From assembly GCA_020250175.1 (NCBI GenBank), contig JADCEN010000053.1, positions 1 through 54,473 on the forward strand: 54,473 bases of DNA, given 5' to 3'. The stretch comes from Rhodobacter sp. Lineage in GTDB: Bacteria; Pseudomonadota; Alphaproteobacteria; Rhodobacterales; Rhodobacteraceae. Shown here in pieces: positions 13,384-35,062 of the stretch. The position numbers and the translations under genes were made by a program. Under the pieces are notes generated by a model that saw only the letters and a list, made by a program, of their open reading frames with translations, did no database searches and was not told the origin of the DNA. The first letter of the stretch is position 1, and every line of letters begins with the position of its first letter.

Positions 13384-14556
13384 GTGAATTCCACTGAACA
13401 GCATTTCCCCTGTGCAGAATGCGGATCGCAGCTTGGCTTTGGGCCCGGGCAAAAGCGCCTTGTCTGTTCGCATTGCGGAAAAGAGCAGGCGGTTCCCAGC
13501 TTTCCGTCGACGCGGCTTGGCGCACAGCGGGGCCTGCCGATCGAACGGGCCGGTGCCTTTCCGGCCGCTCCGCCGTCCGACAGTGAGTTTGAAGAGTTTT
13601 CCTGCCCGAACTGCGGGGCAAGAACCATGTTTGACGGCACGAGCTTTGCCCTGAACTGTCCCTACTGCGGCACATCAATCAGTCACCCGGCGACTGAAAA
13701 CCTGCAGGCCCGGCCCAAGGCCATTCTGCCCTTTGCCGTCCCCGAGGCGGAGGCCTACCGATCAGCGCTGGCAAAGCTGCAGGACACCGCCCTTTCCCCG
13801 GCTGACCTTGCATCTGATGTCCGGCTGCGCCCGACCCTGAAAGGGGTTTACCTGCCGTTCTGGGTCTTTGGTGCCGGGTCCGAGACGGCCTATACCGTCA
13901 ACCGGGGGAAACACTTTGTTGAGCAGGTCCACCGAAGACATTTCAATGACGAAGCTTTTGCCGAAGCCTTCGTGACCTACGAGCGCAAAGCCGAATGGAC
14001 AAGGATCGACGGGCATTTGCCGGTGCCGCTAAATGACATTCTGGTCGCAGCCTCGCCCAACCCGCCCCGGCCCTTTGATACGGCGCTTGAACCCTGGGAC
14101 TTCGCAGAGCTTGTCCCGTTTCAGCGGCATTACCTGACGGGCTTCCATGCCGAGATGTCGAAAATTCCTGCCGCCGATGCCCACAGACATGCCCGCCATC
14201 TGATGCACGGGGCTATCCATCGGGAGATCTACCGCGCGGTCGAGGCAGATGAGATGGATCTGGTGCGCTGCGACACGCATTTCTCGAACGAGACCTTCAA
14301 GCTTGTTCTGCTGCCCTTCTGGATTGCCGACTACCGGGTTCAGGGCAAGACCCTTCTGGTCTATGTAAACGGTCAGACCGGCAAGGCCATGGCGCAGGTT
14401 GGCGATATTGATCCCAAGGTCGGATGGTCCGGCTGGATGGCGCTGGCCCTGTTTGCGCCCGTGTTGATCCTGGCAGGCTGGATCTTTTTCCTCGGTGGAT
14501 CAACTTTGGTCCATTGGTACGGGCCCGCTTTCGTCAACTACTTCCTGACACCCTGA
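13384..14556 (+). CDS. Double zinc-ribbon protein with C-terminal membrane anchor (paralogue A)
   Basis: 390 residues from a GTG start (AAGGACAAGG upstream). Two zinc ribbons: CAECG...CSHCG (about 10-32) and CPNCG...CPYCG (about 75-98). A middle region holds conserved aromatic patches (GVYLPFWVFG, ETFKLVLLPFWIADY) and a short VNGQTGK motif. A C-terminal membrane segment (ALALFAPVLILAGWIFFLGG) is at about 355-375. It is a paralogue of the convergent gene at 14563-15693; their stop codons are 6 bp apart. Such proteins are sometimes labelled 'replication factor Y-like' by databases, but there is no helicase domain here. Function unknown; the layout suggests a membrane-tethered adapter. Confidence 0.8.
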   Translation: MNSTEQHFPCAECGSQLGFGPGQKRLVCSHCGKEQAVPSFPSTRLGAQRGLPIERAGAFPAAPPSDSEFEEFSCPNCGARTMFDGTSFALNCPYCGTSISHPATENLQARPKAILPFAVPEAEAYRSALAKLQDTALSPADLASDVRLRPTLKGVYLPFWVFGAGSETAYTVNRGKHFVEQVHRRHFNDEAFAEAFVTYERKAEWTRIDGHLPVPLNDILVAASPNPPRPFDTALEPWDFAELVPFQRHYLTGFHAEMSKIPAADAHRHARHLMHGAIHREIYRAVEADEMDLVRCDTHFSNETFKLVLLPFWIADYRVQGKTLLVYVNGQTGKAMAQVGDIDPKVGWSGWMALALFAPVLILAGWIFFLGGSTLVHWYGPAFVNYFLTP

Positions 14557-14562
14557 GCTCCG

Positions 14563-15693
14563 TCAGTATCCGCCTGCATCAATGGTGTTCTGCCCGGTCT
14601 GATTTAGCCACACCACCGTGCCGATGACCACCGCGACCACAAGGCAGGCCAGCAGAATCTTCCAGACTGACCACGGGCGTTCGCCCTGAACCTCGCCGGT
14701 CTGGCCATTGACCAGAAAGCGATAGCTCTTGCCGTTGAACTTGTAGGCCGCGATCCAGATTGGCAGCAGGATGTGCTTGAAGGTTTCCTTCGAATGGGCG
14801 GTCTCGACGACCTCTATCCGCTGCTCGTCCCCGCCGATGTCGTGGCGCACATCCATCTGGATGACAGCCGCCATGCGCGTGCGCGCCACAATATAGCCGT
14901 CGGCAAGGGGCACGGTATAGCCTTCGGCGCGGAACCCGGCCAGGAAATCCGCTTTGTAGGCGACCAGTGCCGTCAGGTCCCAGTCCGTCAGCTCGTTGCC
15001 CAGCCGTTGCGGCAGGCTGGAGGAGGCCACGACCAGAACATCGTCAAAACGCCGGGCCACCTGCCCCGAGGCGGGGGACCAGCGCGTATGGCGCACCTGC
15101 TGCAGGCGCTGTTCGGCGCGGCCGTTCACGTTCACGCTGACGGTCCGCGTCTCGTAGTAATGGTTGCCGCGCTGGCCGTGATAGCGGCTGCGCGTCTCGG
15201 CATCGAAGGTCCAGTAGGGCACATACATCCCCGTCATCGCCCGGCCCTTGCGGGCATAGTCGACAAGGCCCGAAGGGGCGAACCAAAGCCGGCCCAGCCA
15301 GCCCGTCATCGCGCTGCGGGCCTCGGCTTCCGACAGAACAAAGGGGATCAGCGCCTGGGGCTTGATCAGGCGGTGGCTGCCGGTTTCTGCAACTACCGGC
15401 GTGGCACAGAACGGGCATAGGGTGGCATGCGCCGCCCCGTCGAATTCCACCAGCGCGCCGCAGCTTGGGCAGGTGGTGGCGCGCACCTCTTCCATGATCG
15501 TGCCGGGAAGGTCGTTGCGCAGTCCCTGTTGCAGGTCAAGCTCTGCCAGCGCGCGCGACTGTGACCACGGACCTTCGGCGGCAATCGATTGGACATTTCC
15601 GCAGTGCGTGCAGACAAGCTGCGTCTGGCCGGGGGCAAACCGAAGGTCGGCCCCGCAGCTGTCGCATGGCCAGCGCGTCTCGGTCTGTGCCAA
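14563..15693 (-). CDS. Double zinc-ribbon protein with C-terminal membrane anchor (paralogue B), last gene of the XpaC/TelA/SPFH operon
   Basis: 376 residues from a TTG start (GGAGCC upstream), 3 bp after the stop of the SPFH gene. Zinc ribbons CDSCG...CTHCG (about 10-32) and CPSCG...CPFC (about 75-97); then the same middle as paralogue A: MYVPYWTFDAETRSRY, ETFKHILLPIWIAAYKFNG, RFLVNGQTGEVQGE; then one membrane helix (LLACLVVAVVIGTVVW). The conserved order ribbon-ribbon-aromatic domain-VNGQTG-helix in both copies supports a real family. Operon position next to the SPFH protein suggests it is a partner at the membrane. Biochemical function unknown. Confidence 0.82.
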   Translation of the reverse strand: MAQTETRWPCDSCGADLRFAPGQTQLVCTHCGNVQSIAAEGPWSQSRALAELDLQQGLRNDLPGTIMEEVRATTCPSCGALVEFDGAAHATLCPFCATPVVAETGSHRLIKPQALIPFVLSEAEARSAMTGWLGRLWFAPSGLVDYARKGRAMTGMYVPYWTFDAETRSRYHGQRGNHYYETRTVSVNVNGRAEQRLQQVRHTRWSPASGQVARRFDDVLVVASSSLPQRLGNELTDWDLTALVAYKADFLAGFRAEGYTVPLADGYIVARTRMAAVIQMDVRHDIGGDEQRIEVVETAHSKETFKHILLPIWIAAYKFNGKSYRFLVNGQTGEVQGERPWSVWKILLACLVVAVVIGTVVWLNQTGQNTIDAGGY

Positions 15694-15696
15694 GGA

Positions 15697-16791
15697 TCAG
15701 GCTCCGGGCGGGGGCGGTGGCACCCGGGCGAACAGACCCGCAAGCGCCGTGTCGCCCGCCGGTTTCCAGCCGTCCTGCCCTGCTGTCCAGACCAGGCTCG
15801 TGGCAGTCACTTTTCTGGCTGCCGCCATTTCCTGCAAGGCGTCCTGCGCGAAGGGGCCGGTTGCGGCCCCGTTTTCGGCAATGTGCCAAAGCGGGGCCGC
15901 AGCCCCAGGCAGGGGGGGCGGCAGATCGGCACTCCGGGCAATGCCCTGCCACGGACCGCCGCGGTTTGCCATTTCCATCCCGATGGCCGCCCCAAGCCCG
16001 GTGCTGATCGCGGCACCCGCGGCAGAGTTCGGCTGCACCATGGATTCGGCGGCGTTGAAATCCATGTACTTCGACAGGTCTCCGGCTAGTCCGGTAGAGG
16101 TGCGCTTGTCCAGAACCTTTTCCACCTCTTCGGGCAGCGAGATATTCTCGATATAGAACTCGGGCAGGATCAGCCCGTATTCGGCGATCTGGGATGCAAT
16201 CGCCGTGGTCACCAGCTTGCCCAGGTCCTTGGTATTGGCCGCCATGTCCAGCACGGGGATATTCGCCGTGGCCAGAACCCGGCCGACTTCCTGCACGATC
16301 ACGTTTCGGATGTGAAAGCTGATCTCGTCCGACGTGAACTCGCCATCCGTTCCCACGATCTCGGTCATGAACTTTGACGGGTCGGACACCCGCATGGAAT
16401 AGGTGCCAAAGGCGCGCAACCTTATCGGCCCGAATTCCGGGTCTCGCAGCATGACCGGGTTCTTTGTGCCCCATTTCAGGTCGTTGAAGCGGGTGGTGTT
16501 GAGGAAATAGATCTCCGACTTGAACGGGGACCGGAACATGTGATCCCAGTGCTGCAATGTGGTCAGTATGGGGATATTGTTCGTCTCGAGCACATAAAGC
16601 CCCGGCCCGAATACATCGGCCAGCTGGCCTTCATGGATGAAGACGGCCGCCTGACCCTCGCGCACCGTCAGCTTTGCCCCGTATTTGATGGCATGGCCGA
16701 AGCGTTCGAACCGCCAGACCATCGTGTCGCGGGTGTCATCCGTCCAGTGGATGACGTCGATGAATTCACCCTTCAGGAAATCCAGAATCAT
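15697..16791 (-). CDS. SPFH-domain protein with C-terminal GYF_2-like domain
   Basis: 364 residues. The body (about 20-240) has the SPFH/band-7 look of 'virion core protein'-labelled bacterial homologues: QAAVFIHEGQLADVFGPGLY, VRDPEFGPIRLRAFGTYSMRV, then the helical part with IASQIAEYGLILPEFYIENISLPEEVEKVLDKR. A Gly/Ala-rich linker follows and then a GYF_2-type module (LWHIAENGAATGPFAQDAL ... LVWTAGQDGWKPA) at about 300-355. SPFH proteins form large rings or scaffolds on membranes; GYF_2 modules bind partners. GGAGG lies 8 nt before the ATG. Lies between the DUF2927 lipoprotein (29 bp upstream) and zinc-ribbon B (3 bp downstream). Confidence 0.88.
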   Translation of the reverse strand: MILDFLKGEFIDVIHWTDDTRDTMVWRFERFGHAIKYGAKLTVREGQAAVFIHEGQLADVFGPGLYVLETNNIPILTTLQHWDHMFRSPFKSEIYFLNTTRFNDLKWGTKNPVMLRDPEFGPIRLRAFGTYSMRVSDPSKFMTEIVGTDGEFTSDEISFHIRNVIVQEVGRVLATANIPVLDMAANTKDLGKLVTTAIASQIAEYGLILPEFYIENISLPEEVEKVLDKRTSTGLAGDLSKYMDFNAAESMVQPNSAAGAAISTGLGAAIGMEMANRGGPWQGIARSADLPPPLPGAAAPLWHIAENGAATGPFAQDALQEMAAARKVTATSLVWTAGQDGWKPAGDTALAGLFARVPPPPPGA

Positions 16792-16820
16792 GGCTCAAGC
16801 CTCCAGCGTTGGCGTTAGGG

Positions 16821-17771
16821 TCAACTGTCCCCGCCGATCAGGGCGGTGGCAAGTGAATCGACAATCGGGCGCGCTTCAACCTCGGTCATGCCGGGGGTCA
16901 GTCGCGGGTCATACAGCATCTTCAGCATCAGTTCGTCCATCGGGGTCAGCAACGCGAATTCCTCGTCATCGTTGAAGATCGACGGGCGGGCCGAAGGGCT
17001 GTCATTTGCCAGACCCAAACCTTGGGTGATCTCTTCATGAAGGCAGGACAACCGCATCAGGTCGGGGTGTTCCGCGCGGATCACGGCAAAGGCCGTGGTA
17101 TAGGCGCTGCCCGTGCCGCCCGAGATGGCATAGACAAGGCAATAGGTGGCCCGCGGCATATCGGTAATGCCTGCGACTTCGGCCGGGCCCAGGCCCGGCA
17201 GAAGGGCGCGGATTGTCGGGCCAAGCGCCTGACGTTCGTCTTCGCTGACGACATAGATGAAGAAGTTCGGCTGCACCTCGGAAAGACGGATGGGATGGCC
17301 GCTGATCGCCTGCAACCGGCCCAGGAAGGATGCAACCCGGGCCCGGTCCGTAGCCTGACGGTCGGCGGGAACCGAGTCGCCAAAGCGCAGGGAAACGCGG
17401 ACCGGCTGATCCCAGCGGCGCAACCGGCTTTGTACCGGCTGGGCGACAAGGCCGCGGTCGGACCGGATGTATTCGTCATAAAGTGCGACGCGAACAAAGT
17501 TGTCGGCCAGCATGCGGTCGGTGAAGGGGGCGTCGGTGCTGCCGCTGTCGGTCCGCATCAGGCCCCGCGCCAGAAGGTTGGCCTGGACCTTTGCATAATG
17601 CTGCCGGGCCGCCTGGCTGGCAGGCGAAGGCACCGGTGCTGCAACCGGCGTCTGGACAATCGGCTGTGCGACCGGTGCCGGCACGTCCACCGCGACCGGC
17701 TCACATGCCGCCAGGCCAAACCCGGCAAGAAACGCGGGCACCGCGAAAAGGCGCTTGCAGCAGACCATCAT
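16821..17771 (-). CDS. DUF2927 lipoprotein
   Basis: 316 residues with a lipoprotein signal ending LAGFGLAAC (Cys about residue 23), then a Pro/Val/Ala linker and a DUF2927 domain (about 125-300). The domain contains CLHEEITQGLGLANDSP, which recalls zincin metalloprotease helices but lacks the second His of HExxH, so catalysis is uncertain. A second Met codon directly follows the first; neither has a strong ribosome site. Probably anchored in the periplasmic face of a membrane. It sits 18 bp after telA-like and 29 bp before the SPFH gene. Confidence 0.85.
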   Translation of the reverse strand: MMVCCKRLFAVPAFLAGFGLAACEPVAVDVPAPVAQPIVQTPVAAPVPSPASQAARQHYAKVQANLLARGLMRTDSGSTDAPFTDRMLADNFVRVALYDEYIRSDRGLVAQPVQSRLRRWDQPVRVSLRFGDSVPADRQATDRARVASFLGRLQAISGHPIRLSEVQPNFFIYVVSEDERQALGPTIRALLPGLGPAEVAGITDMPRATYCLVYAISGGTGSAYTTAFAVIRAEHPDLMRLSCLHEEITQGLGLANDSPSARPSIFNDDEEFALLTPMDELMLKMLYDPRLTPGMTEVEARPIVDSLATALIGGDS

Positions 17772-17789
17772 GAGGGCGGGCGCACCGGA

Positions 17790-18968
17790 TCAGCCGGGGG
17801 TTGCGGGCGAAGAGACCGCCTTGCGGGCACGGGCCGAAGCCAGGGCATCGCGAAGATCGGCTTCCATCTTCACCAACTCGACCTCGGCTGCGGCGCGGCG
17901 GGCCTTGCCCTGATCGGCAATCTGCAAACTGTCTTCGATGGTGGCGATCAGCGTGGCATTGGCCTGCTTGACCGCCTCGATGTCGAAGACGCCGCGCTCC
18001 ATCTCCTCGCGCACGACAAGGTTGGACTGACGCAGCGTTTCCGCTGTGGACTTCAGCAGATCATTGGTCAGGTCGTTGGCCTCACGGACGGCATCGGCGG
18101 CCTCGCGGCTGCGCTGGATCGTGACGGCCTGGGCGAGCTGCGTTTCCCAAAGCGGTACGGTGTTGACCAGGGTCGAATTGATCCGGGTCACCAGGCTTTT
18201 GTCGTTTTCCTGGACCAGACGGATCGACGGCAGCGATTGCATCGTGACCTGGCGTGTCAGCTTCAGGTCATGCACCCGGCGCTCCAGATCGTCGCGGGCC
18301 GACCGCAGATCGCGCAAGTCCTGCGCCCGCATCACCTGATCTTCCCCCGAGGCGGCGGCAACGGCGGCTTCGCGCGCCGGAATCCCGGTTGCGTCCACAT
18401 CGGCAAGCCTGGCTTCACCCGCCGCGATGTACAGCGCAAGCTCGTCGTAGAAGGCCAGCGTCTTGATATACAGCAGATCCAGCGACTGGATGTCTTTCAG
18501 CAGCTTGTGCTCGTGGCTCAGCAGCTCTGCGGTGATGCTGTCGATCTGGGTCTGGACGTCTTCGAACCGGGCCACGAAGGCGGCCAGGGGGGCCGCCTGT
18601 CCGGTCAGCCGTTCCCACCAGCTTTTCTCGCGCCGCACGTCCAGCTCTTCCGAAGAGAAGCCGCGCAGCGTCGAGACCATCTTGCGCAGCGAGTCTCCGG
18701 CGGGTCCCACATCCTTGTTGCGCACATCGGCCAGCATCGCCTGGCTGATCGCCTGCAATTCAGACTGCGCGCCAGAGCCGAAGGCGATGATCGACTGGGT
18801 ATTCGCAAGGTCGATCTCGGTCATCCTCTGCCGGATCGCCTGCGCCTTGTCCGCAGGGGCCGCAGTCAGGGGGACAATTTCAGAGACAGGCTCGGGCAGC
18901 AGAACGGCCGTCAATGCCCCGGCGGCGGCAAGGGTGGCTTCGGCTTCGGCGCGCAGCGTTTCGGTCAT
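17790..18968 (-). CDS. TelA/KlaA-like 'toxic anion resistance' family protein
   Basis: 392 residues, mostly long helices, the TelA family length. Recognisable stretches: SWWERLTGQ after RGFSSEELDVRREK, ESLRQQ-like region LPSIRLVQENDKSLVTRINS, TVPLWETQLAQAVTIQRSRE, and the C-terminal LRQSNLVVREEMERGVFDIE. Family members are named for tellurite resistance on plasmids, but most chromosomal copies have no proven role. Gap of 3 bp to the upstream XpaC-like gene; the same gene pair (xpaC-yaaN) occurs in Bacillus. No membrane segment; likely cytosolic partner of XpaC. Confidence 0.88.
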   Translation of the reverse strand: MTETLRAEAEATLAAAGALTAVLLPEPVSEIVPLTAAPADKAQAIRQRMTEIDLANTQSIIAFGSGAQSELQAISQAMLADVRNKDVGPAGDSLRKMVSTLRGFSSEELDVRREKSWWERLTGQAAPLAAFVARFEDVQTQIDSITAELLSHEHKLLKDIQSLDLLYIKTLAFYDELALYIAAGEARLADVDATGIPAREAAVAAASGEDQVMRAQDLRDLRSARDDLERRVHDLKLTRQVTMQSLPSIRLVQENDKSLVTRINSTLVNTVPLWETQLAQAVTIQRSREAADAVREANDLTNDLLKSTAETLRQSNLVVREEMERGVFDIEAVKQANATLIATIEDSLQIADQGKARRAAAEVELVKMEADLRDALASARARKAVSSPATPG

Positions 18969-18971
18969 CCT

Positions 18972-19895
18972 TCAATCTTCCTGTTTGGGCAAAGGGGGCA
19001 CCGGGGCAAGGTCCGGCACGGCGGTGCGGTTGCGTTCCAATTGCAGCCGGTCGCGCAGCACCTTGATCTCGACATCCAGATCGATGTGATCATCGGTCCG
19101 CAGCGCCTCGGTCCGATTGCGCAAATGCGTGTCGAGATCCGTCAGAAGCTGTTCGTAATCGGCACGGGCCCTGGCACTGCGGGTCTGCGGGTAAAGATCG
19201 CAGAACTTCACCGTGGCATCGCGTGCGGCCATCAGGAACACGCCGATGTCCTTGCGCGCGGCGGTCAGATCGCGCGGATCACCCTCGATGGTGCGAAACA
19301 GCGCCCGGGCCGTCACGGCCAGGCTGTTGACCCGGGCCTCAAGTGCCCGGTCATTGGCCAGCAGGATCGCATCCGTCATGCCGCGCAGATAGGCCTCGCC
19401 CTCGTCCACGGCTTTGGCAACGCGGTCCGACTGAAAGCGGTCGATGCCTTCGCCGCCCTTGTCGCGCAGCGGGTCGGGGCCAAAGGCGATGAGATGCAGC
19501 ACCGCCCCGATGACGCCGAACAGCATCGGCGTGGCCAGGCCGGGGGCGGCCACCATGCCACCCGCGAACAGGCCGGCCCCGGTCAAGGCCGCACCGGCGA
19601 TCTTGCGCGGAAACGCCGGCCGGCGCGCCACCTTGCGCGCATCAAAGGCATCCTGCGCCAACAGCCCGTCGCGCGTGACCCAGGCGGCCGCGATCAGAAG
19701 CGCCAGCGCGGCCAGGTTCCAGCCCAGCGCAGCGGGCGGGCCAGTGAACGCCTTGACGGCAAAAATGAACGGCACAAGAAACAGGATATTGACCCGACCG
19801 CCCGCGCGGCTGGGGCGCTTTGCTTCAAAGCCGGGACGCGGGCCATCGTCGGGCAAGGGAGTTGGGCTGTACTTGCCGCCGTATCGCTGCGCCAT
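18972..19895 (-). CDS. XpaC-like membrane protein (5-bromo-4-chloroindolyl phosphate hydrolysis family)
   Basis: 307 residues. Membrane segments at about 35-52 (VNILFLVPFIFAVKAF), 57-74 (LGWNLAALALLIAAAWV) and a Gly/Ala-rich double pass at about 97-140. A soluble helical domain follows (about 150-290) with FCDLYPQTRSARARADYEQLL and DLDVEIKVLRDRLQLER. The family is named after a Bacillus gene linked to X-phos hydrolysis, but no catalytic motif is known. The ATG follows 1 nt after the TGA of the small upstream gene, so translation is probably coupled. Confidence 0.85.
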   Translation of the reverse strand: MAQRYGGKYSPTPLPDDGPRPGFEAKRPSRAGGRVNILFLVPFIFAVKAFTGPPAALGWNLAALALLIAAAWVTRDGLLAQDAFDARKVARRPAFPRKIAGAALTGAGLFAGGMVAAPGLATPMLFGVIGAVLHLIAFGPDPLRDKGGEGIDRFQSDRVAKAVDEGEAYLRGMTDAILLANDRALEARVNSLAVTARALFRTIEGDPRDLTAARKDIGVFLMAARDATVKFCDLYPQTRSARARADYEQLLTDLDTHLRNRTEALRTDDHIDLDVEIKVLRDRLQLERNRTAVPDLAPVPPLPKQED

Positions 19896-19979
19896 TCACG
19901 CGCCCCCCGATACGCCGACGTACAGGATCAGCGCAACCAGCAGAAAGAAGGCAACTTTCTGAAGCCCGGATTCCGACAT
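19896..19979 (-). CDS. 27-residue single-pass membrane peptide at the head of the XpaC/TelA operon
   Basis: A short frame of 27 codons plus TGA, starting MSESGLQKVA, with one hydrophobic helix (FFLLVALILYVGV) and ending SGGA. GGGGA lies about 4 nt before the ATG. It ends directly at the xpaC start, with 1 nt or less between stop and next ATG, the spacing seen throughout this operon. Too short for homology to be judged by eye. Seen directly: frame, helix, ribosome site and coupling. Inferred: that it is expressed and part of the same complex. Confidence 0.6.
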   Translation of the reverse strand: MSESGLQKVAFFLLVALILYVGVSGGA

Positions 19980-20076
19980 TCGATCCCCACTGCGACCGCA
20001 TATCGTTTCAGAACGGCCAAGACCACATATAGGGCAGCCCGCGCCTGCTTGCCAGACGATTGACGCGGGCGCGGCC

Positions 20077-22037: not shown

Positions 22038-22682
22038 ATGGCCTGGCGTGATGCGGTGGATGGCTATTGCGAGCGGCTGACGCCGGGCTATTGGGCCGAG
22101 CCGGTGAACGCCGTCACGAATATGGCCTTTGTGGTTGCGGCGGCCCTGATGTGGCGGCGCACGGCGGGGCTGCCGCTGGCACGGGCCATGGTGCTGGTGC
22201 TGGGGGCGATCGGGGTAGGGTCCTATCTGTTTCACACCCATGCCAACCGGGCAACCGGGCTGATGGATGTGATCCCGATTGTCCTGTTCATTCTGCTTTA
22301 CGTCTTTGCGGCAAGCCGCGATTTCCTGGGGCTGACGCCGTGGCGGGCCGGACTGGTGACGGCGGCCTTCCTTCCTTACGCGGCTGCGACCATACCGCTG
22401 TGGTCGATGATCCCGGGGCTTGGGTCGTCGGCCGGCTATGCGCCGGTGCCGGTCCTGATCCTTGTCTATGCCTGGCTGCTGCGCCGCCATGCGCCCGCAA
22501 CGGCACGGGGACTGGCGGCGGGGGCGGCCATTCTGGTTCTGTCACTTGTCTTTCGGACCCTTGACGAACCGCTTTGCGCCGTCTGGCCCATCGGCACGCA
22601 TTTCCTGTGGCATCTTCTGAATGCGGTCATGCTGGGCTGGATGATCAACGTCTATGTCCGGCACCGCACCGGCAGGGCTTGA
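22038..22682 (+). CDS. Ceramidase-family (alkaline ceramidase/CREST) membrane protein
   Basis: 214 residues with about seven hydrophobic segments. The family fingerprints are in place: DGYCERLTPGYWAEPVNAVTN near the N-terminus, SYLFHTHAN (His of the metal site) after TM2, and GTHFLWHLLNAV with two His near the C-terminus. CREST hydrolases bind Zn through three His and an Asp (VIPIVLF is preceded by GLMD). It would hydrolyse an amide in a lipid such as ceramide or another acyl amide in the inner membrane; the substrate here is unknown. Followed 43 bp later by a small membrane protein in the same direction. Confidence 0.85.
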   Translation: MAWRDAVDGYCERLTPGYWAEPVNAVTNMAFVVAAALMWRRTAGLPLARAMVLVLGAIGVGSYLFHTHANRATGLMDVIPIVLFILLYVFAASRDFLGLTPWRAGLVTAAFLPYAAATIPLWSMIPGLGSSAGYAPVPVLILVYAWLLRRHAPATARGLAAGAAILVLSLVFRTLDEPLCAVWPIGTHFLWHLLNAVMLGWMINVYVRHRTGRA

Positions 22683-26371: not shown

Positions 26372-26778
26372 GCGCGGATGGCCGGATGACCGCGGCGGGG
26401 CGAAGGCCCGGTCGAGGAAAGTCCGGGCTCCATGAAGCAAGGGTGCCGGGTAACGCCCGGCCGGGGCAACCCGAGGGAAAGCGCCACAGAGAACAGTCTG
26501 CCCCATCGGACCGGCAACGGTTCCGGGGTGATGGTGAAACGGTGGGGTAAAAGCCCACCGCGGACCTGGCAACAGGGACGGCACGGCAAGCCCCACCCGG
26601 AGCAATGCCGAATAGGGGCCTCAGGCGGGCCGTCCGGCAACGGGCGGCACCGCAGGGACGCTTCAGCCCGGAGGCCCGGGTTGGCAGCTAAAGCCCGCCG
26701 ACAACGGCGGGATCAGAGGAATGGTCATCCAGGGGGTTTCGGCCCCCGGACAGAACCCGGCTTACAGGCCGTCCGCGC
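26372..26778 (+). ncRNA. rnpB: RNase P RNA, class A
   Basis: The conserved CR-I block GAGGAAAGTCCGGGCT is at about 26414-26429, and the universal 3' block AGAACCCGGCTTACAGGCC ends the molecule. The ends pair as P1: GCGCGGATGGCC at 26372 with GGCCGTCCGCGC ending at 26778, a perfect 12-bp stem. Internal AGAGGAATGGTCATCC and GGGTAAAAGCCCACC also match bacterial RNase P RNAs. It is the catalytic RNA for 5' maturation of tRNAs. Transcript ends may differ by a few bases. The 270 bp up to rpmG contain GC-rich hairpins but no gene. Confidence 0.97.
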
Positions 26779-27049
26779 ATGTTCTGCTGCTGAAATGAGC
26801 CGCCTGCGGCGGCACGCCTTTTGTCTCGGCTCCGCGCTGTGCGCGGCACCTCGGGTCGGCTCCGCCGGGGGGTATTTCTGCCAAGAAGAAACCGTAGCGG
26901 GGCGGTTCATCTGCGGGGCGGCAGGCGGCAGGCCGCCATGCCGTTCGGGGCGGTGCTTTCGCTGTTGACTCCGCAGCGGTGCCGGATAAAAGGCGGGCTT
27001 CAAGGATTTCATCGGGCGCTGCGGTTCCCGGGCTGTTGGAGAGTGGACT

Positions 27050-32965: not shown

Positions 32966-33330
32966 CCTGCGCGCCAGACGCGCCTTTGTCCCGGTGCCAG
33001 CCTTTTGACACGCCCGGACGGTGAAGGCCCGATGCGGCAGATCGCGCTGCCGCTTTGCCGGGGCCGCCGGAAACACCGCCAAATGCAAGCGGTCTGACGC
33101 CGGGCTGGTGGCCACCCGGATTGCCTTGCCGGGGCGCAGGGGCAGTCCGCCTGACAGCCCATTTGTGCAAAAGGGCCCGTATGGCGTCATATCAACAGAT
33201 TGGTCGGGTTTGGCCCCTGCCGCCGTTGGCGCGGCGGTACCGGGCGAGGGGTTGGCAGAGCCGCCGCAAAGCTCCGATTGGGGGGATCGGGGGATGCGCG
33301 TTGGGGCCGGGCCTTGAAACCCCGGTCAAG
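32966..33330. other. Intergenic stretch downstream of the CcsR-like RNAs
   Basis: 365 bp with no gene. It contains two hairpin-prone segments: CCGCCG-TTGGCG-CGGCGG at 33220-33237 and CCTTGA-N8-TCAAGG at 33312-33331; either could end the minus-strand RNA array. Confidence 0.4.
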
Positions 33331-33360
33331 GGCGGCGACCCTGGGGAGGATGGGGCCGCC
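33331..33360 (-). ncRNA. CcsR-like hairpin RNA, unit 4
   Basis: On the minus strand GGCGGC CCC, loop AUCCUCCCCA, GGG, 2-nt bulge, GCCGCC. The loop is pyrimidine-rich like the other three units but departs most from CCUCCUCCC. Confidence 0.55.
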
Positions 33361-33372
33361 GCGCGTCCGATC

Positions 33373-33395
33373 AGCCCCGGGAAGAGGTGGAGCCT
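33373..33395 (-). ncRNA. CcsR-like hairpin RNA, unit 3
   Basis: Minus strand AG(G)CUCC, loop ACCUCUUCCC, GGGGCU, with one bulged G and one G-U pair. The loop differs from CCUCCUCCC by one base. Confidence 0.6.
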
Positions 33396-33434
33396 TTCGC
33401 ACAACGGACCGAAACCTTGGCTTCGGAAGAAAGG

Positions 33435-33469
33435 GCGGCGGCACCAGGGAGGAGAAGACGTGCCGCCGC
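33435..33469 (-). ncRNA. CcsR-like hairpin RNA, unit 2
   Basis: Minus strand has a perfect 10-bp stem GCGGCGGCAC / GTGCCGCCGC around a 15-nt loop that contains CUCCUCCC. Followed by CCUUUCUUCC. Confidence 0.7.
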
Positions 33470-33481
33470 TTTTGCAACGAA

Positions 33482-33505
33482 CCCCTGCGGGAGGAGGTGC
33501 AGGGG
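33482..33505 (-). ncRNA. CcsR-like hairpin RNA, unit 1
   Basis: Minus strand CCCCUGC, loop ACCUCCUCCC, GCAGGGG: a 7-bp stem presenting exactly the CCUCCUCCC (anti-Shine-Dalgarno-like) motif. It begins 15 bp after the stop of the DUF1127 gene, the same arrangement as CcaF1-CcsR1-4 in Rhodobacter sphaeroides. Confidence 0.78.
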
Positions 33506-33519
33506 CCCCGCAAAGAAGT

Positions 33520-33735
33520 TTACTTGCCGCAGGCCGCCTCGGTGGCGATCTGCCGGATGTCGGCGCGGTGGATGCCCAGGTCCGCCAGTTCGCGGTCCGT
33601 CAGGCCATTCAACTCGCGCGCCGTCTGGCGGTACATCCGGCGGCGCAGCACTGCGGCCCGGACGTATCTGGTAATCGCCGTCAGGCGGTCCTGAAAGCTG
33701 CCGCTGGCAGCGCGGGTGGAATTCACATAAGCCAT
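33520..33735 (-). CDS. DUF1127 small basic protein (CcaF1-like)
   Basis: 71 residues. The DUF1127 core is at about 30-62: RRRMYRQTARELNGLTDRELADLGIHRADI, with the L-x-x-L-x-D-x-x-L-x-D-L-G-I pattern. GAGG lies 9 nt before the ATG of MAYVNSTRAA; a longer frame to 33999 has no support. In Rhodobacter sphaeroides the equivalent gene (CcaF1) is cotranscribed with four CcsR sRNAs under RpoHI/RpoHII and the protein binds RNA; this locus shows the same design. Role here: RNA maturation or turnover in stress, by analogy. Confidence 0.88.
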   Translation of the reverse strand: MAYVNSTRAASGSFQDRLTAITRYVRAAVLRRRMYRQTARELNGLTDRELADLGIHRADIRQIATEAACGK

Positions 33736-33792
33736 TTGCTTAGCCTCATATCGTTGTCGGTCACGCTCTTTGTCTTTCGGACCGTTGGAACA

Positions 33793-33820
33793 AATATACC
33801 CCGATGCTGCAGTTGCACAA
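33793..33820 (-). promoter_or_regulatory. Candidate promoter of the DUF1127-CcsR transcript
   Basis: Minus strand TTGTGC, 16-nt spacer, TATATT; 58 bp before the start codon. The TTG and TATAT are compatible with RpoH-class or sigma70 promoters. A GCAACTGCA/TGCAGTTGC element overlaps the -35. Confidence 0.4.
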
Positions 33821-33988
33821 TGCACCGCATGCTCAATGCTGCCATGCAGCAAGTGCATGGCTATATTCATGAATTTTTCACAGTATCGCGGGCGCTTCGC
33901 ATCAAATCCGGGCAGAGTGTGAACTTTCCCTTGTCGGCTGTTGCCGAAACGGCGACCTTTGCACAATCCAAGGGCAAAGGAGAACCGC

Positions 33989-35062
33989 ATGTCCCCCACC
34001 GTTCCGTCCGTACAGCAGGCGCTGGCGCAGATCCCGGTACCCGGTGGCGGCGATCTGATGTCGCGGGATCTGGTTCGGGCGCTGACGGTCGAGGGCGGTC
34101 AGGTACGATTCGTCATCGAAGCCGCCGATCCCGATCAGGCGCGTGCGCTGGAACCGGTGCGCGCCGCCGCCGAGGCCGCCCTGCGGGCGCTGCCGGGGGT
34201 GGCACAGGTTCAGGCCCTGCTGACAGCGCACGGCCCGGCGGCCAAGGCACCGCCCCCCGGCCTGAAGATCGGCCAGCATCCGACGCCGCACCAGGGCGGG
34301 CCGCAGCGGATCACCGGGGTGGACCGGATCATCGCCGTGGCCAGCGGCAAGGGCGGGGTGGGCAAATCCACCGTCTCGTCCAACCTGGCCGTGGCTCTGG
34401 CCCGCGCCGGGCGCCGGGTGGGGCTGCTGGATGCCGATATCTACGGCCCGTCGCAGCCGCGCATGATGGGCGTGTCGAAACGCCCGGCATCGCCCGACGG
34501 CAAGACGATCATCCCGCTGCAGGCGCACGGGGTGACAATGATGTCGATCGGCCTGATGCTGAAGGAAGATGAGGCCGTGGTCTGGCGCGGCCCGATGATC
34601 ATGGGGGCGCTGCAACAACTGATCACCCAGGTGGACTGGGGCCGTCTGGATGTGCTGATCGTCGATCTTCCGCCCGGCACCGGGGACATCCAGCTGACGC
34701 TGTGCCAGCGCACGCATCTGACGGGGGCCATCGTGGTATCCACCCCGCAGGATGTGGCGCTGCTGGATGCGCGCAAGGCGCTGGACATGTTTCAGAAGCT
34801 GAAAACGCCGGTTCTGGGCCTGATCGAGAACATGTCAGCCTATATCTGCCCGAACTGCGGGCACGAGGCGCATATCTTCGGCCATGGTGGCGTGCGCGCC
34901 GAGGCCCTGAAGCTGGGCCTGCCCTTTCTGGGCGAGTTGCCGCTGTCGCTGGAGGTTCGGATTGCCGGAGATTCCGGAACGCCGATCGCGGCGGGCGACG
35001 GCGCGACGGCTGCGGCTTATGCGGTGTTGGCCCGGCGACTGATTGACGGCGGCATGGCCTGA
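33989..35062 (+). CDS. Mrp/NBP35-family Fe-S cluster carrier ATPase
   Basis: 357 residues. N-terminal MIP18/DUF59-like domain (about 1-75), a Pro-rich linker, then the ParA/MinD-type ATPase with deviant Walker A ASGKGGVGKST (about 118), Walker B VLIVDLPPGTGD (about 230) and the cluster-binding CPNCG (CxxC, about 288). It binds a 4Fe-4S cluster between two subunits and hands it to apoproteins. AAAGGAGAA lies before the ATG. Divergent from the DUF1127 gene. A small CCTGAC-CGCC-GTCAGG hairpin spans the stop codon. Confidence 0.93.
   Translation: MSPTVPSVQQALAQIPVPGGGDLMSRDLVRALTVEGGQVRFVIEAADPDQARALEPVRAAAEAALRALPGVAQVQALLTAHGPAAKAPPPGLKIGQHPTPHQGGPQRITGVDRIIAVASGKGGVGKSTVSSNLAVALARAGRRVGLLDADIYGPSQPRMMGVSKRPASPDGKTIIPLQAHGVTMMSIGLMLKEDEAVVWRGPMIMGALQQLITQVDWGRLDVLIVDLPPGTGDIQLTLCQRTHLTGAIVVSTPQDVALLDARKALDMFQKLKTPVLGLIENMSAYICPNCGHEAHIFGHGGVRAEALKLGLPFLGELPLSLEVRIAGDSGTPIAAGDGATAAAYAVLARRLIDGGMA

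Follow-up and report, generated by a model that had tools for sequence, protein, structure and literature searches.

We analysed a stretch of 54,473 nucleotides from a Rhodobacter sp. contig (assembly GCA_020250175.1, JADCEN010000053.1; hereafter the window) and found that six packed minus-strand genes, encoding in order a small membrane peptide, XpaC, TelA, a DUF2927 lipoprotein-type protein, an SPFH protein and a zinc-ribbon protein (ZR1), belong to a gene set that most of the Rhodobacterales genomes examined retain. In our judgement the chances are about even that the set is one operon for an inner-membrane envelope-maintenance complex, which would join two older membrane-stress modules, and we read it as a putative variant of the SPFH/zinc-ribbon membrane-stress module that has XpaC-TelA as its partner and no linkage to PspA. 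A single functional membrane unit is supported because the gene order lasts, the genes are jointly absent from some genomes and the TelA proteins of linked loci form one clade. An earlier note on the same DNA had described the six genes, with gaps of 0-29 bp and a paralogue of the last gene (ZR2) facing them, and both coordinates and gaps hold (Table 1). It had missed that the SPFH and zinc-ribbon proteins correspond to the Bacillus YdjI-YdjG pair, that the peptide is tied to XpaC, and that the facing paralogue is local.

Table 1. Features of the gene cluster in the window; gene coordinates include the stop codons.
Feature	Position	Strand	Basis
Promoter-like element CTGGCA-N18-TATA, 5' of the small peptide	20028..20055	-	Pattern search of upstream regions
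27-residue single-pass membrane microprotein	19896..19979	-	Stop abuts XpaC start; frame of this kind in 110/114 loci
XpaC, four hydrophobic segments in first half	18972..19895	-	PF10112, 5e-17; gap 0 bp to peptide
TelA, without hydrophobic membrane segment	17790..18968	-	PF05816, 8e-103; gap 3 bp
DUF2927, lipoprotein-type	16821..17771	-	PF11150, 1.4e-63; gap 18 bp
SPFH (Band_7_1) with polyproline - GYF_2 - polyproline C-terminal tail	15697..16791	-	PF13421, 8e-100; PF14237, 1.9e-16; gap 29 bp
ZR1, YdjG-type: two N-terminal zinc ribbons, middle domain, C-terminal membrane helix; TTG start	14563..15693	-	Gap 3 bp
ZR2, convergent paralogue of ZR1, 6 bp away	13384..14556	+	32% identical to ZR1

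The earlier note had proposed a survey of gene neighbourhoods to see whether the set stays together, and the five large genes do so in most loci. Of 121 genomes of the order, 119 have TelA, one of them (G085) only as a diverged frame of 302 residues, and two genomes have a second TelA match below the cut-off. The arrangement XpaC-TelA-DUF2927-SPFH-ZR1 was found in 32 of 41 loci, the window counted in. Two of the nine exceptions lie at contig ends (L037, L066); four have ZR1 elsewhere in the genome (L045, L046, L058, L060, one with a stop in the matched frame); one retains XpaC-TelA only, with SPFH and ZR1 approximately 14 kb off (L061); and in the genomes of the last two (L052 and L053, the latter being genome G081) SPFH and ZR1 were not found genome-wide. 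The 80 best TelA loci of a collection of named genomes, with 70-77% TelA identity, gave a similar result: of the 69 with full flanks, 66 keep XpaC-TelA-DUF2927-SPFH-ZR, 58 with exactly these five genes and eight with an extra XpaC-like gene in front. The remaining three show an inverted SPFH and ZR1 (L118), no XpaC (L124) or no ZR1 in reach (L140). The two sets overlap (e.g., L033, L127) and are therefore not independent. Neither TelA-less genome (G011, G106) has ZR1, or SPFH above the cut-off. Nine genomes chosen because they looked like outliers contained SPFH and ZR1 both (five genomes) or neither (four genomes).

Several side observations were made on these loci. The extra XpaC-like gene in the eight full-flank loci is diverged (L161, 6032-6898; L139, 5965-6810; L149, L150, L159, L167, L177 and L189), and Pfam names no family for the one copy that was checked. 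Membrane genes recur between SPFH and ZR1 in L036, L040 and L063; we take them to resemble cytochrome b561 relatives. All of the 80 best loci carry Rhodobacterales-type labels except L167, which is labelled Enemella evansiae, presumably of a different phylum, and yet has a Rhodobacterales-like operon with a TelA identity of 72%; the genome is perhaps mislabelled or contaminated.

The small peptide of the window (27 residues, 19979-19896: MSESGLQKVAFFLLVALILYVGVSGGA) had been proposed as a gene in the earlier note, and the comparison bears this out. A frame of 20-45 residues with a run of at least 12 small or hydrophobic residues is present just 5' of XpaC in 110 of 114 loci with XpaC, compared with 23 of 540 equally long control windows taken from those sequences. 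The four loci that fail the rule are L032, L061, L138 and L186, and in L053 and L170 the rule picked the wrong frame, a fitting one existing in each. Differences at codon positions 1, 2 and 3 numbered 1345, 646 and 2372 over 242 non-independent pairs, which is the pattern of protein-coding sequence. The nearest in-frame XpaC start, chosen without a null comparison, lies at -1 nt relative to the microprotein in 61 of 110 loci and between -1 and +4 nt in 105. Sequences of the 27-residue form agree in their start, in a single membrane stretch and in a Gly-Gly close to the end. No such peptide was found in the two XpaC-less loci examined (L124, L206). By these measures of sequence the microprotein is genuine and closely tied to XpaC. 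Upstream of the peptide, a CTGGCA or CTAGCA element paired with TATA or TAAG occurs in 26 of 110 regions against 0.15 expected from mononucleotide shuffles, the strict pattern having been drawn from the same 110 regions. Because this promoter-like pair stands upstream, it suggests that the transcript may start at the microprotein. Further upstream, a short membrane peptide of another type (MSKSTFYFSV type, approximately 36-45 residues) recurs in L035, L040, L041, L042, L062, L064 and L067, and also in L008 and L019.

Hydropathy revealed no hydrophobic segment in the SPFH protein, which consists of the SPFH domain, a proline run, a GYF_2 domain and a second proline run near the C terminus. A pattern for both proline runs matched 35 of 38 SPFH sequences, and two of the three misses are cut by contig ends. 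The polyproline tail was present in 121 of 121 uncut SPFH sequences with a GYF_2-like motif, scored by pattern and not by Pfam, compared with 1 of 14 without the motif; the lone exception is L109, whose frame is broken before its GYF_2. GYF domains bind proline-rich peptides, and since the tail accompanies GYF_2, we infer that GYF_2 of one SPFH subunit may bind the polyproline of another. XpaC was considered as a ligand of GYF_2 as the tail of the window's XpaC is proline-rich, but was rejected because none of 39 other XpaC ends is (two have a single PP). In searches against solved structures, GYF_2 matched a gliding-motility protein (E 6e-4), whereas TelA, SPFH and ZR1 gave only chance-level matches. 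A phage collection yielded six partial SPFH matches of at most 30% identity.

Eight cysteines of ZR1 show no variation among 117 aligned sequences, and the protein has a single membrane helix at its C terminus. It is homologous over its length to a protein of Enterococcus gallinarum (24% identity over 377 columns, E 3e-35) whose gene is flanked by a TPM-domain gene and by an SPFH gene that encodes zinc ribbons at its C-terminal end; the assignment of ZR1 as YdjG-type was made by comparison with this protein and not with B. subtilis YdjG. In Pfam, ZR1 and ZR2 scored only below the curated cut-offs, and searches of the cluster proteins against NCBIfam and PHROGs gave nothing decisive. The earlier note had described the paralogue as facing the six genes. 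It does so in the window, but a close ZR2, always convergent with ZR1, occurs in only four of seven genomes of the genus (our own included), no second zinc-ribbon gene was seen outside the window in the stretches of the 41 and 80 loci, and distant second copies lie elsewhere in a few other genomes. We regard ZR2 as a lineage-specific copy and not as a member of the conserved set.

A lipobox pattern is matched by 69 of 78 DUF2927 sequences. Two cysteines and a HEE..Q..G...D block are invariant, and the protein is probably a periplasmic sensing or contact part. The zincin-like helix which the earlier note had ascribed to it finds no support, as HExxH is present in 0 of 78 sequences, and the residue at lipoprotein position +2 was rejected as a sorting signal because it varies. 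No solved relative of DUF2927 was found by sequence, and the best by profile had an E value of 0.18. The family is present in 21 of 187 other genomes of the class; as a fixed partner outside the order it was rejected, since the sole case in the TelA regions fetched there (L086) lies approximately 4.4 kb off on the other strand. Separately, the window's own genome carries a second DUF2927 gene (G000, contig C38, 65824-66423; open frame of 467 residues), and genome G278 has seven DUF2927 matches on one contig. The XpaC-TelA module itself is represented in the window by adjacent PF10112 and PF05816 genes. An alignment of relatives (A2) included 65 of the 79 available.

Outside Rhodobacterales, four of 16 TelA regions of the class (L075, L076, L077 and L084, from four families) contain XpaC-TelA-SPFH-ZR without DUF2927. 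Two of these (L075, L076) have a longer one-helix frame in the place of the microprotein, which is only suggestive. Two weak TelA matches of the class (G212, G304) lie outside the 16 regions. In the TelA tree, the four linked loci, two XpaC-first loci (L078, L079) and 12 Rhodobacterales rows form one clade with a support of 100/100, apart from other types; the tree has 27 rows, 12 taken from the 41 Rhodobacterales loci and 15 from the 16 other class regions (L087 excluded), and some branches are long. A survey of 398 genomes of the phylum found strong SPFH and TelA matches close together on one contig only in the window's family, with closeness judged from match positions and some assemblies of other families fragmented. 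At 20 other SPFH loci of the phylum, a zinc-ribbon neighbour was strong in nine, weak in five and not found in six; GYF_2 is carried by seven of the 20, and neither TelA nor XpaC nor PspA was found at any of them (the PspA profile being built from one sequence). Because of the four linked regions in four families, the single TelA clade and the family-limited closeness of SPFH and TelA, the linked operon looks old and alphaproteobacterial, with DUF2927 apparently having joined in or near Rhodobacterales.

We then considered the relation to PspA, which is found in 41 of 121 genomes and, in the window's own genome, on another contig. In none of 20 PspA regions was SPFH, ZR, TelA or XpaC found. 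A role of the cluster as a stand-in only where PspA is missing was rejected, since PspA (41 of 121) and TelA (119 of 121) are neither exclusive nor linked. TPM occurs in 21 of 61 genomes and again lies on another contig in the window's own genome. The Pfam scan of the six large proteins gave no match to PspA or TPM. Of the features of a pspA-ydjGHI operon, the cluster thus has the anchor-less Band_7_1 SPFH and the YdjG-type partner, and it lacks PspA in or beside the operon and a TPM protein. That TelA stands where PspA would be is a positional idea only.

In B. subtilis, passages of PMC8581546 report that membrane localization of YdjI depends on YdjG and YdjH, and that YdjI is required for PspA foci. 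The components of the Enterococcus SPFH-ZR-TPM set are those that PMC11237479 describes for YdjG, YdjH and the SPFH partner encoded with them, and PMC9239133 also deals with the operon. A listing in PMC3498285 assigns sigma-W dependence to pspA-ydjG-ydjH-ydjI and to xpaC-yaaN alike. The halves that form one gene set here are thus two distinct operons in Bacillus, under a common envelope-stress regulon. Consistent with a response to envelope stress, the Listeria xpaC-telA pair lmo1966-lmo1967 is reported in PMC12791056 to rise approximately 1.5-fold (log2 0.61-0.63) with the bacteriocin garvicin KS. In the literature searched we found no description of TelA, XpaC and SPFH together and none on DUF2927, and the main text of Ravi 2024 mentions neither TelA nor XpaC.

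On this basis we propose a model. Gene order, homologies, the microprotein, the pairing of tail and GYF_2 and the single TelA clade are established from sequence, whereas complex formation, the clasp, stress role and direction of sensing are all conditional. In a first module, the SPFH scaffold, having no anchor of its own, would be held at the membrane by tail-anchored ZR1, as YdjI is by YdjG and YdjH. The second module would consist of membrane XpaC and cytosolic TelA, with the microprotein made together with XpaC and probably acting as its subunit or regulator. In Rhodobacterales the DUF2927 lipoprotein would be added as the probable periplasmic part. Through GYF_2, each SPFH subunit may clasp the polyproline tail of its neighbour, with the scaffold zipping or unzipping when the membrane is damaged, and XpaC-TelA would take the effector place that PspA has in Bacillus. 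A more specific version is possible, though we regard it as rather doubtful: an alphaproteobacterial membrane-repair machine independent of PspA, in which the SPFH-ZR anchor recruits XpaC-TelA, the microprotein and periplasmic DUF2927 gate it, and the polyproline-GYF_2 clasp controls assembly of an SPFH ring.

Several observations weigh against a single operon and complex. Within the order, conservation extends to genes around the set: the pseudouridine synthase and tadA on its upstream side are each present in 55 of 60 loci, compared with 59-60 of 60 for the operon genes, while purC is present in seven and pfkB in 31. Profiles for these four genes gave no match in the linked stretches L075, L076, L077 and L084 outside the order, but L084 is a short contig and, like others, offers little flank. 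ZR1 begins more than 300 bp beyond SPFH in 25 of 58 loci, often with genes between, so one transcript is not certain in every genome, and ZR1 is detached altogether in the four genomes mentioned above. XpaC-TelA occurs without nearby SPFH-ZR in L053, L061 and L079, and G081 has neither SPFH nor ZR1. The promoter-like element looks unlike a stress-sigma site. Lastly, TelA and PspA aligned in hhalign with a probability of 0.8%, a value obtained with a shallow TelA profile (Neff 1.6).

The strongest competing explanation, to which we assign a real but minor share of belief, is that XpaC-TelA with the peptide, DUF2927 and SPFH-ZR are two or three distinct membrane-stress modules that only share a transcript and work independently, possibly in response to one stress. 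Each pair does occur without the other elsewhere, ZR1 is detached in four genomes and insertions vary. Against this reading, the TelAs of linked operons fall in one clade, the order lasts across families, and neither SPFH nor ZR1 passes the cut-off in the two genomes without TelA.

A dedicated operon for resistance to tellurite or another oxyanion seems unlikely to us. The family name of TelA points that way, as do a review that in its survey of tellurite determinants lists the chromosomal telA of R. sphaeroides (PMC6955997) and a disruption of Listeria telA, cited in PMC12791056, that raised tellurite susceptibility 2-fold; the same mutant, however, was 4-fold more susceptible to nisin. TelA in 119 of 121 genomes fits a general role, and no reductase or transporter family was found in the Pfam scan of the six large proteins. 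The earlier note had proposed one membrane-spanning complex for envelope or anion stress: the single membrane unit and envelope stress agree with gene order, joint absences, the common clade and the Bacillus and Listeria data, while for anion stress the review listing and the 2-fold Listeria effect are what speak.

We also consider improbable an SPFH complex for membrane-protein quality control, whose substrates GYF_2, zinc ribbons and DUF2927 would handle. Band_7/SPFH proteins are described as chaperone-like membrane scaffolds in parts of PMC8581546 and PMC11237479, but the scan found no protease family in the set and DUF2927 lacks HExxH. An anti-phage or conflict system, which an uncharacterized multi-gene membrane set might bring to mind, is highly improbable: almost every genome of the order has the set, and a PADLOC scan that covered the six large proteins but not the 27-residue peptide gave no match at E values up to 0.01, in keeping with the restraint of the earlier note on a defence role.

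Elsewhere in the window, a full-length match to bacterial class A RNase P RNA lies at 26374-26780 (plus strand), and a Ceramidase-like membrane protein (PF05875) is encoded at 22038-22682 (plus strand). Two tandem CcsR1-like small RNAs at 33327-33515 (minus strand; 65.7 bits for one, which exceeds the gathering score, and 43 bits for the other, which does not) lie directly 3' of an open reading frame at 33520-33999, the C-terminal part of which we take to resemble a DUF1127 protein, an arrangement presumably like the CcaF1-CcsR locus of Rhodobacter.

TelA, XpaC, DUF2927 and GYF_2-type SPFH are widely named and poorly understood, and the operon would turn four vague annotations, together with a microprotein overlooked by first-pass annotation, into one testable complex. 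The cluster may further reveal which proteins act alongside an SPFH scaffold in genomes that lack PspA or encode it at a separate locus. Among known systems, B. subtilis pspA-ydjGHI shares with it the anchor-less Band_7 SPFH and a partner carrying a membrane helix and two zinc ribbons; in contrast, the operon described here has no PspA or TPM gene, its SPFH carries GYF_2 and polyproline in place of the C-terminal zinc finger of YdjI, and XpaC, TelA, DUF2927 and the microprotein are added. The xpaC-yaaN operon of B. subtilis and lmo1966-lmo1967 of Listeria likewise encode an XpaC and TelA pair that responds with envelope-stress genes, but there the pair stands alone, whereas here it is joined to SPFH-ZR, DUF2927 and the microprotein. 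With telA of Rhodobacter sphaeroides, a possible orthologue, and kilAtelAB of plasmid RK2 the cluster has in common the TelA family, linked to tellurite tolerance; a klaB record is 27% identical. The SPFH-ZR pairs of other Pseudomonadota are adjacent as well, some with GYF_2, but in the 20 stretches compared they come with no XpaC, TelA or DUF2927, and it is the joining of these to the SPFH-ZR pair that sets the Rhodobacterales operon apart.

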